Shown: positions 2-10,486 of the stretch, piece after piece
How the letters are laid out: each line of letters opens with the position of its first letter
How positions within the stretch are numbered: the first letter of the stretch is position 1
From: an uncultured Lachnospiraceae bacterium
GTDB lineage: Bacteria; Bacillota; Clostridia; Lachnospirales; Lachnospiraceae
DNA length: 10,486 nucleotides
Assembly: GCA_947594085.1 (NCBI GenBank)
Contig: CANQEB010000072.1
Location: 1-10,486 of the forward strand
Direction: 5' to 3'
Program-made: the position numbers and the translations under genes
Notes under the pieces: generated by a model
What the model was told of the DNA's origin: nothing
Databases searched by the model: none
Seen by the model: the letters and a program-made list of their open reading frames with translations, nothing else

Positions 2-106
2 CGCGCGGTCGATGGCGAAGACCACCGGAAGATTCTGCAGACAGACGTCGTGCAAAATCTGGTCGTAGGCGCGCTGCAGGAAGGACGAATAGATCGCCAC
101 GATCGG
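2..106 (-). CDS. dxs: Internal fragment of 1-deoxy-D-xylulose-5-phosphate synthase
   Basis: Read leftward from 106, one frame gives 35 residues beginning [16 protein letters not shown] and continuing through [17 protein letters not shown] to the window edge. This matches a highly conserved stretch in the middle of Dxs, within the transketolase-type pyrimidine-binding domain. Dxs condenses pyruvate and glyceraldehyde 3-phosphate with thiamine diphosphate, the first step of the MEP isoprenoid pathway; dxr, the second step, is at 3037-4185. There is no start codon and no N-terminal half here: the codon before Pro reads Trp (TGG) and belongs to recA sequence, where Dxs usually has Lys. The gene presumably continues beyond position 1. 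It shares its strand, but not its frame, with recA. Identity is seen directly in the residues; why the fragment is here is inference (chimera or deletion). Confidence 0.9.
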
Positions 107-108
107 CC
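103..108. other. recA/dxs junction
   Basis: Reading on the minus strand, recA codons ACT-GGT-GGC-CG (114 to 104) pass directly into the Dxs codons CCG-ATC-GTG-GCG (106 to 95). The shared CCG (104-106) could belong to either gene, so the overlap is only about 3 nt. Both sides are well-conserved coding sequence right up to the join, with no insertion sequence, repeat or intergenic DNA between them. Confidence 0.85.
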
Positions 109-744
109 ACCAGTCGTCGTCTCCGGATTCCCGAACATGATACCTACCTTCTCACGAAGCTGGTTGATAAACACGACCGTACAATTCGACTTGCTGATCA
201 CGCCGGTCAGTTTGCGCAGCGCCTGAGACATCAATCTCGCCTGCAGCCCTACATGAGAGTCGCCCATATCGCCGTCGATCTCTGCCTTCGGCACCAGTGC
301 CGCCACGGAGTCTACAATGATGATATCCACAGCCCCGGAACGCACCATCGTCTCAGTGATCTCCAGCGCCTGCTCTCCGTTATCCGGCTGAGATATATAG
401 AGATTGTCGATATCCACGCCGATATTGCGCGCATATACCGGATCCAGTGCATGCTCCGCGTCGATAAAGCCGGCAATTCCACCACGCTTCTGTATCTCGG
501 ATACCATGTGGAGCGCGACGGTCGTCTTGCCGCTCGACTCTGGGCCGTAGATCTCTATAATACGCCCTTTCGGAATGCCGCCAAGACCAAGCGCGATATC
601 CAGGCTCAAGGAACCGGTCGGAACGGTCTCAATATTCATATGGGCCCCTGTGTCTCCCAACTTCATCACAGAACCCTTTCCAAACTGCTTCTCAATCTGC
701 GCAAGCGCAGCATCCAATGCTTTCAACTTATCTTCCTGTGCCAT
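104..744 (-). CDS. recA: RecA recombinase, N-terminal ~213 residues only (3' end lost at junction)
   Basis: RecA polymerises on single-stranded DNA, drives homologous pairing and triggers LexA self-cleavage. The reading frame starts at ATG 744 ([20 protein letters not shown]), 6 nt after an AAGGAGA ribosome binding site (751-757). Visible parts are the N-terminal helix; Walker A GPESSGKT at residues 67-74; the catalytic Glu in IDAEHALD (E97); Walker B IIIVDS ending at D145-S146; and loop L2 with [22 protein letters not shown]. The next residues should be close to (R/N)ALKFY; instead the frame runs into dxs sequence and gives an unrelated tail (SWRSIRPSC...) that stays open to the window edge. 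About 135 residues, including the end of the core and the C-terminal domain, are missing, so the product as written would not be functional. It has its own promoter with an SOS box. The first 213 residues look intact and unmutated, which fits a recent break or an assembly error better than an old pseudogene. Confidence 0.93.
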
Positions 745-7319: not shown

Positions 7320-10193
7320 CTAGCCTTTTTGCCGTTTTTTCATATAATACTTTGACAGTCTCCTGACCCCGCCGCCCAGATAGCGGAAAGTCGGCTCCGT
7401 GATGATCGCGAAGATCACCAGAAGCATCACGCACTTCTTGGAGATCGACGTGATCGCAAAGATCTTGCTGACAAAGATCATGCAGTACAGCAGACCGGCC
7501 GCCATGCCGAACCACAGGAACCAGTGGTACTTCGTCATCGGGGACGCGATCTGGTACAGAATCATCAATCCGACGATCGCCAGCAGGATCGTGGACGACG
7601 TCGAGACATCGTTCGCATCCACGCCGAACTCCATGCAGAACAGATACAGGCCGCTGACCACGATAAAGTCAGTCAGACCGCCCGGCAGCGCCTTGAAGAG
7701 CACGTTGCTCAGGAAGTGTCCCTTGATGCGGTCTGTGTTTTGCTCCAGCGACATCACGAACGCCGGAATACCGATCGTGAACATGCTGATCAGCGAGATC
7801 TGCGACGGCTCCAACGGATAGTTGACCATCAGAACGATCGAGAGAATCGACAGAAACAGTGAGAAAATATTCTTTACGAGGAAGAGGCTGGCCGTGCGCT
7901 CGATGTTGTTCACGACACGTCTTCCCTCCGCCACCACGGCGGGCATTTTGGAGAAATCAGACTCCAACAGCACAAGCTGGGCCACCTGAGCCGCCGCGTC
8001 GCTTCCGGACGCCATCGCAATGCTGCAGTCCGCGTCCTTGAGCGCCAGCACGTCATTGACGCCGTCGCCCGTCATCGCCACCGTGTGTCCGGCACCCTTC
8101 AGTGCGCTGATGAGGCAGCGCTTCTGGTCCGGTGTGACGCGCCCGAAGACCGCATAACGATCTGCCGCCTCGACAAGTTCTTCATCGGTAAGCGTCGAAG
8201 TATCGATATAAGTCTCCGCACCGCGAATCCCGGCTTCCCTCGCCACCTCAGAAACCGTCACAGGATTGTCGCCGGAAATGACCTTGATCTCCACACCCTG
8301 CTCCGCGAAGTATGTGAACGTCTCCTTCGCATTCTCGCGCAACGGATTCGCTAGAAGCACCATTCCCATCGGCTCAACGCTCTCGCGCAACGCCTGTCCG
8401 TCCAGCACGCCGTTATATTTGGCAAACACAATCACGCGGAAGCCCTGGCGACTCCAATATTCAATCTGAGATGCATACGCGTCATACTGTCCCCGCAGGA
8501 CAGACTCCGGCGCGCCAAGCACATAGCTCGCATCCTCAAAAATCGCTCCACTGTATTTCGTGACCGAGGAGAAAGAGAAAACGCGCTCCGGGCGTTTTCC
8601 GCTGCGCTTGCGGAAGAAGTCCTTGATCGCCTTCATCGTGATATTGTCGGCTGCCATCGCCGCCGCAAAATCTCCTATTGCAAGCTCAAACTCCGCCGAC
8701 TCCTCCGCTGAAAACGCCGGGAGCTCTATTCCTTCGCCTTCCTTCGGATCGGCTTCTGCCGCCCCGAACGCTTTTGTCACGGTTTCCTTTGAACCGACTT
8801 CTGCCGTCCCGGCCACCTTCACCACGGTTTCTTTCGGCTCAGCTTCCGCCGTCCCGGCTGCCTTCGTCACAGTTTCCTTCGGATCTGCTTCTGACGCCTT
8901 CGCCACAATTTCCTTCGTCTCAGCTTCAGCTACCTCGGCTGCCTTCGCCACGGTTTCCTTCGGCTCAGCTTCCGCCGCCTCAACCGCCTTCGTCACAGTT
9001 TCTTTCGCCTCAACGCTTGCCGCCTCGGCCGCCTTCGTATCAACCTCCTGGCCCATCTTCAATCCGGCCCGCAGCGGAAACACTCTCTTGACCGTCATCG
9101 TGTTGTCTGTGATCGTGCCAGTCTTGTCGACGCAAAGCACATCCACACGCGCCAATGTCTCGATGCATTTCATATTGTGCACAAGTACCTTCTGCATAGC
9201 CAGGCGCATCACACTCACTGCCAACGCCACGCTCGCGAGCAGATACAAGCCCTCCGGAATCATGCCGAGGATCGCAGCGACCGTCGCAGTCACACTCTCG
9301 CGCACCGGAGTATTGTTGATAAAATGCTGCTGGCTGAACAGAATGATCGCAATCGGTATAATCAGCACACCAATCATCTTGACCAGGCGATTCAGAGAGC
9401 GTATCATCTCCGAAACCTCCTCGTCATTCATCTCCTTCGCCTTCAGCGTGAGCTGGGAGACATAGGAATCCTCACCGACACGCTCCACCCTACCGTAGCA
9501 CTGCCCGGATACGATGAAGCTCCCTGAGAGCAGCATGTCCCCTTTCTTCTTGGAGATCGCGTCTGATTCGCCTGTAATCAGCGACTCGTTGACCAGAACC
9601 TCTCCGTCCTCCACGATCGTGTCTGCCGGGATCTGATTCCCCGCAGCAAAAATCACGACATCGTCCAGCACAAGCTCTTCCGCCGGCACTTGTCGCTCCA
9701 CGCCGCCTCTCATCACCGTATTCTTCGGCGCGTTCAAAATGCGCAGATTGTCCAGCACCTTCTTCGACCGCAGCTCCTGGACTATACCGATCAACGTATT
9801 CCCGATGATAACCGGAAGAAAGGTCAGATCCCGAAATGATCCCACAAGAATCAGCATCACCGCAATGATAAAAAAGATCAGGTTGAAATACGTAAAAATA
9901 TTGCTGCAGATAATCTCTTTTTTGGATTTGGAGGGCGCCTCGATCGCATGATTCACCGCATCCTGACTGATGCGCTCCTGTACCTGCGCGTCCGACAACC
10001 CTTCCGCCACCGCCGGCGTATAACGCTTAAGTGGCGGAATGATCTTCTCTGGAAGCTGAAACTCTTCTGAGATCACCTTTGTCCGAAGCAACTTTTGTCG
10101 AAATGACTTGATGCTTCGCCACAGATCTTTCCCCTGCTTTTCTTCTGGCTTTATTTCTCCGTAATTTTCCACGTTGAGTTCTTCTTTTTCCAC
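7320..10193 (-). CDS. P-type cation-transporting ATPase (CtpE-like P2 group) with Ala/Glu repeat insert
   Basis: An ATP-driven cation pump of the plasma membrane; 957 residues, longer than I expect for its relatives. Domain order: charged N-terminus; membrane helices M1-M2 (about 98-140); actuator domain with TGES (207-210); M3-M4 with PEGL (313-316); phosphorylation site DKTGTIT (D356); a repeat insert (about 397-485); N domain with KYSG and GAPE (560-563); P domain with SGDNP (640-644) and TGDGVND (708-714); and six more hydrophobic helices to the end. PEGL lacking a following Pro, with no CPC motif, rules out P1B heavy-metal pumps and recalls CtpE-like pumps reported to move calcium, but the ion cannot be read from the sequence. 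The start at GTG 10193 has AGAGG about 8 nt upstream; the TTG at 10268 has none. No terminator is evident before the pyrH promoter. Confidence 0.88.
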   Translation of the reverse strand: MEKEELNVENYGEIKPEEKQGKDLWRSIKSFRQKLLRTKVISEEFQLPEKIIPPLKRYTPAVAEGLSDAQVQERISQDAVNHAIEAPSKSKKEIICSNIFTYFNLIFFIIAVMLILVGSFRDLTFLPVIIGNTLIGIVQELRSKKVLDNLRILNAPKNTVMRGGVERQVPAEELVLDDVVIFAAGNQIPADTIVEDGEVLVNESLITGESDAISKKKGDMLLSGSFIVSGQCYGRVERVGEDSYVSQLTLKAKEMNDEEVSEMIRSLNRLVKMIGVLIIPIAIILFSQQHFINNTPVRESVTATVAAILGMIPEGLYLLASVALAVSVMRLAMQKVLVHNMKCIETLARVDVLCVDKTGTITDNTMTVKRVFPLRAGLKMGQEVDTKAAEAASVEAKETVTKAVEAAEAEPKETVAKAAEVAEAETKEIVAKASEADPKETVTKAAGTAEAEPKETVVKVAGTAEVGSKETVTKAFGAAEADPKEGEGIELPAFSAEESAEFELAIGDFAAAMAADNITMKAIKDFFRKRSGKRPERVFSFSSVTKYSGAIFEDASYVLGAPESVLRGQYDAYASQIEYWSRQGFRVIVFAKYNGVLDGQALRESVEPMGMVLLANPLRENAKETFTYFAEQGVEIKVISGDNPVTVSEVAREAGIRGAETYIDTSTLTDEELVEAADRYAVFGRVTPDQKRCLISALKGAGHTVAMTGDGVNDVLALKDADCSIAMASGSDAAAQVAQLVLLESDFSKMPAVVAEGRRVVNNIERTASLFLVKNIFSLFLSILSIVLMVNYPLEPSQISLISMFTIGIPAFVMSLEQNTDRIKGHFLSNVLFKALPGGLTDFIVVSGLYLFCMEFGVDANDVSTSSTILLAIVGLMILYQIASPMTKYHWFLWFGMAAGLLYCMIFVSKIFAITSISKKCVMLLVIFAIITEPTFRYLGGGVRRLSKYYMKKRQKG
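8745..9005 (-). repeat. Degenerate 45-bp tandem repeat encoding KETVTKAAEAAEAEP-like units
   Basis: Six units lie in register inside the ATPase, at residues 397-483: five of 15 residues and one, the third, of 12. Each begins KETV or KEIV and continues with an Ala/Glu/Lys-rich segment ending in Pro, Thr or Ser. Both DNA and protein copies have diverged, so this is not a fresh expansion. It lies between the phosphorylation motif and the nucleotide-binding domain and is predicted, by composition, to be helical or extended and strongly charged. Confidence 0.9.
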
Positions 10194-10384: not shown

Positions 10385-10486
10385 ATGGTTGTAATGGCTA
10401 TCCGGACGCCCTGCAAGGGCTTGCAATGTCAGGCAGACCCGCTCGCGCTTAATCGGGCACGCAGCGGTGCATAAGCTCGCTTGCGC
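10385..10486. other. GC-rich right edge with overlapping inverted repeats
   Basis: No supported gene. Base composition turns sharply GC-rich after the AT-rich promoter region. Overlapping stems are possible: GCCC-TGCAA-GGGC and TGCAAG-GG-CTTGCA share bases near 10407-10425 and exclude each other, and GCAC/GTGC pairs around 10457-10470. GCTCGC occurs at 10441 and near 10475. It could be the start of a structured RNA, an intergenic repeat or a gene cut by the window edge. Confidence 0.4.

Follow-up and report, generated by a model that had tools for sequence, protein, structure and literature searches.

The window analysed here is a bacterial contig in full (contig C72 of genome G000, 10,486 bp), taken from a draft assembly of 319 contigs with a completeness of 71% and a contamination of 2%. 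At its left end, recA runs on the minus strand until it switches abruptly to the centre of dxs, read in another frame (Table 1). As the window is the entire contig, about 104 bases separate this join from the end of the contig. The earlier note had described recA as joined mid-gene to dxs through about 3 nt of shared sequence, and this description holds: the switch is abrupt, and comparison with relatives suggests an overlap of about 3-4 bases, GCCG. The length of the overlap can only be inferred, since the true parent sequence is known on neither side.

Table 1 Features at the recA-dxs join at the left end of the window.
Feature	Coordinates	Strand	Evidence
recA, codons 1 to ~213, cut at the join	104..744	-	Pfam RecA and DNA identity to relatives
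dxs internal piece, leaving through the contig end	1..106	-	Transket_pyr profile and dxs DNA matches
Join, ~3-4 shared bases (GCCG)	103..107		recA and dxs of relatives compared

The Pfam RecA profile matches the recA part with 384 bits, covering profile positions 1-208 of 262, and recA homology in the DNA of relatives ends at window position 104. On the other side of the join, positions 106-2 correspond in the other frame of the minus strand to the centre of Dxs, matching positions 76-110 of the Transket_pyr profile (E 4.4e-6, 26.9 bits, marginally below the curated cut-off of 27). In DNA comparisons, the better matches show dxs homology from base 1-3 onwards, and this homology gives out at about 100-108. 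Reading both frames, together with these two profile matches, confirms that the genes share a strand and differ in frame, as the earlier note had it. Of the two genes that it took as broken, recA is cut at the join; the dxs piece is terminated by the contig end, which does not show that the gene is truncated.

The recA part resembles that of the host's relatives. Over 641 bases starting at position 104, it shares 88% DNA identity with the closest one; the nearest by recA among 47 same-genus genomes are G038, G034, G042 and G037 (88%), then G035 (87%), G039 and G041 (both 86%). A contig from another Lachnospiraceae draft genome (L025, from Lapin-014 bin33) aligns to the window between positions 104 and 10,414 as six blocks whose DNA identity is 83-90%, with gene order kept; no alignment is obtained around 827-2003 and 8727-9052. 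These comparisons fit a recA part and a contig that for the most part follow one lineage, that of the host. The continuation of recA was also sought elsewhere in the bin, using the DNA of a relative from downstream of the join; this gave no match, a null result that is uninformative by itself.

Within the first of the stretches that do not align to L025, a gene for a transposase of the PD-(D/E)XK nuclease family (PF12784) lies on the minus strand at 992-1897; it holds, at 1155-1231, a tandem repeat with a period of 12 bases encoding AEGR units. At 8739-9038 we find a diverged tandem array with a period of 45 or 90 (multiples of three) and about 70% matches. It occupies a stretch partly unalignable to L025, where a putative long ATPase-like gene of L025 runs.

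The dxs piece has a different kinship from recA. Compared over 102 bases with the five recA-nearest relatives that have a dxs, its identity is 0.716 to G038, G042 and G039, 0.745 to G035 and 0.755 to G037. Among themselves, the dxs of these same relatives are 0.863-0.951 identical (10 pairs), and their recA identity to the window is 0.864-0.883. For G041, the values are 0.856 in recA and 0.794 in dxs. The pairing of recA with dxs drew on 19 recA loci (G036 was left out because of a gap), of which the 15 with a dxs piece were paired; in all 17 non-window pairs with a recA identity of at least 0.86, dxs identity lies between 0.794 and 0.951. The residues point the same way: LHDVCLQ is found in none of the 34 same-genus dxs pieces, all of which have CIQ at the place where the window has CLQ, and it is present in dxs pieces of other genera of the family. 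The low identity to the five relatives and the CLQ/LHDVCLQ residues together set the dxs piece apart from the host's close kin.

The best match over 102 bases is found in two genomes from genus g318, whose dxs reaches 85% (87/102); the best same-genus match, G033, reaches 83%, so that the gap is small. With BLAST, the best match in g318 is 87% over 100 bases (2 of 13 genomes) and the best in the host genus is 84% (again G033), 29 of the 46 other genomes there having given a match. No near-identical donor was found, the highest figures being 85% among 397 genomes drawn from the family and, by BLAST, 87% among the 13 of g318. Of 59 loci chosen for the dxs comparison, 7 yielded no dxs piece (L136, L146, L171, L175, L177, L063 and L072).

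In a 58-row tree, the dxs piece falls beside genus g318, although most forks are weak and the bootstrap had not settled. AU tests reject a tree in which the piece groups with the five recA-nearest relatives (p 0.031) but not one in which it groups with the host genus as a whole (p 0.075). The two parts of the join thus differ in origin in that recA tracks the nearest relatives and dxs does not, a difference to be read against a length of 102 bases and the p value for the whole genus. Descent of the dxs piece from another genus is likely, if not proved. The donor may instead be a distant member of the host genus, as the difference between 83% and 85% is small and the whole-genus grouping is not rejected.

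The join does not recur in the sets that we searched. A 41-base pattern spanning it, with up to 3 mismatches allowed, occurs in one of the 47 same-genus genomes, the window's own, and in none of the 46 others. A RecA loop motif has 101 matches in the loci examined: 94 go on as RecA, and the remaining 7 belong to copies of the window's contig. In the protein collection, 120 RecA relatives were listed of 7,995 scored; GG is followed by RALKFY in 119 of them and by RALKFN in one, and none of the 120 listed shares any five-residue word with the chimeric tail. The join is unseen in independent assemblies, whether the 46 genomes or these listed RecA relatives. As for a viral source, one exact 36-base dxs pattern had no match in viral contigs. 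A distant search of positions 1-744 against a phage collection returned 169 records; the matches of the 20 listed begin at base 100 or later and hence cover recA, not the dxs part. The top-scoring RecA of the protein list (P0001, 400 residues, on a 3.7-kb contig) has no chimeric tail; about 50 of its residues are duplicated internally in tandem, a repeat that may be another assembly error.

A second intact dxs, which the earlier note had expected, was not found in this 71% complete assembly by Dxs and profile searches. A Dxs of 623 residues found no match in it at E 1e-20 or better, and searches with the DXP_synthase_N and Transket_pyr profiles yielded, besides the window piece, only C274 and C25, neither of them found by the Dxs search. 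The same 623-residue Dxs has close matches in 45 of the 46 other same-genus genomes; the sole exception, G006, has no close match (best 29% identity). The native downstream neighbours of dxs sit on contig C285 of the same assembly, which starts inside tlyA and runs via a putative nadK and argR into recN. In a profile search, the tlyA piece shows an FtsJ-like domain.

Abrupt breaks are not confined to the window. On C285 (L186), within bases 1-58, the first ~40-58 bases are not tlyA, though the tlyA of a relative continues there; read on the opposite strand, this tip gives GSNPRQPSQEEMEKLLKCC, which may resemble the final part of an iron-containing alcohol dehydrogenase. On C76, the first 27 bases are 0.22 identical to the relative; a coding stretch then follows in which 52 of 60 match, inside a putative dUTPase.

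We surveyed such tips in 62 of the 319 contigs (C1-C40, C61-C81 and C285; C1-C12 with their left end only), comparing 112 real ends and, as controls, 1742 internal cuts made in these contigs with L025 and with 1.2 Mb of G038, whose genome measures about 2.8 Mb. There was no match for 62 real ends and 1098 controls, and no room in the relative's segment for 3 and 28. Short unaligned tips, of between 20 and 150 bases, were more frequent at real ends, with 13 of the 47 informative ones, than at internal cuts, with 65 of the 616 informative ones (Fisher p 0.0016). Leaving out the two ends that were suspected beforehand gives 11 of 45 (p 0.012); setting aside the window's right end in addition gives 10 of 44 (p 0.024). 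These p values are rough, because the controls overlap each other. Some of the unaligned tips are repeats, as at the window's right end, or possibly ordinary divergence.

We now propose that the join is very probably a chimeric contig tip, produced in the library or in assembly and carrying dxs DNA of another species. Directly observed are the abrupt switch, its position at a tip, the dxs piece's departure from the nearest relatives and the join's failure to recur in the searched sets; at ~104 bases, the join is also within about a read length of the contig end, the read length being an assumed one. The earlier note had likewise preferred a chimeric read or contig, and its preference gains support from the kinship of the dxs piece, from the absence of recurrence and from the other abrupt tips in the bin. 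A contig tip at the host's recA locus would have gained about 100 bases of another species' dxs, the donor probably belonging to another Lachnospiraceae genus. The cause would be either a library fragment that was itself chimeric or an assembler misjoin over a falsely matched short overlap. In the real genome, recA would most likely be intact and the host's dxs would fall in an assembly gap.

For short-read metagenome assembly, a review (PMC7299287) describes contigs that are chimeras, combining sequence of several genomes. The present contig is like them in having genes apparently from two genomes, an abrupt join near a contig end and a fragmented bin of origin. It differs in that it is known here from assembled sequence, which does not distinguish a library chimera from a misjoin.

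Set against a chimeric tip, a genuine rearrangement carried by some of the population, with transferred or duplicated dxs DNA breaking recA, is very improbable. In its first form, foreign dxs DNA would have been inserted into recA by horizontal transfer, which would account for the unlike kinship of the piece. Such an insertion would however break a recombination gene; moreover, only recA and dxs sequence is recognised at the join, the dxs piece stops at the contig end, and similar breaks stand at other tips of the bin. We hold it to be highly improbable.

The other real rearrangements depend on how the two genes are arranged in relatives. In all five contigs that carry both (L042, L063, L069, L072 and G018, the last being the only one from the host genus), the two genes share a strand, with dxs upstream. 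The distance between them is about 7-47 kb: within 10 kb in the four L contigs and 47 kb in G018. In other same-genus genomes, recA and dxs are on separate contigs or one of them is missing; in the close relatives they are on separate contigs. With dxs upstream, a window reading recA 5' to dxs 3' fits the head-to-tail junction of a tandem duplication, or of an excised circle, between the two genes. The dxs should then be the host's own, yet it is only 72-76% identical to that of the five recA-nearest relatives, and the join does not recur in the searched sets, which makes a junction of this kind highly improbable too.

The biological alternative of the earlier note was that a genuine deletion had brought recA and dxs together on one chromosome, perhaps in some members of the population. 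It could draw on the common strand and the ~7-47 kb spacing in the five contigs, as well as on the short overlap present at the join. The geometry is nevertheless wrong: with dxs upstream of recA, as in five of five contigs (G018 alone being of the same genus), a deletion gives the opposite join, dxs 5'-recA 3', where the window has recA 5'-dxs 3'. The dxs piece is also mismatched to the host's nearest relatives. We reject the deletion on gene order, as seen in these five contigs of relatives, and regard it as scarcely credible. Finally, a natural recA-dxs fusion protein, already ruled out in the earlier note, has next to no chance of being real and is rejected here as well: both parts are on the same strand, but the RecA frame past the join is not the Dxs frame and no common reading frame crosses it.

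Taken at face value, the join would suggest an organism without a working recA and with its MEP pathway broken. As a chimeric contig tip, the case is an ordinary one, and its sole interest is as a warning that, in draft metagenome bins, genes called less than about 150 bases from a contig end can be chimeric.

At its opposite end, positions 10392-10486, the contig enters an interspersed repeat that is about 200 bases long and for which strong hairpins are predicted. The window's copy has no Rfam match at the gathering threshold. Copies or pieces of this repeat are present at many places in the G000 assembly, several of them at contig ends, and also in G038.
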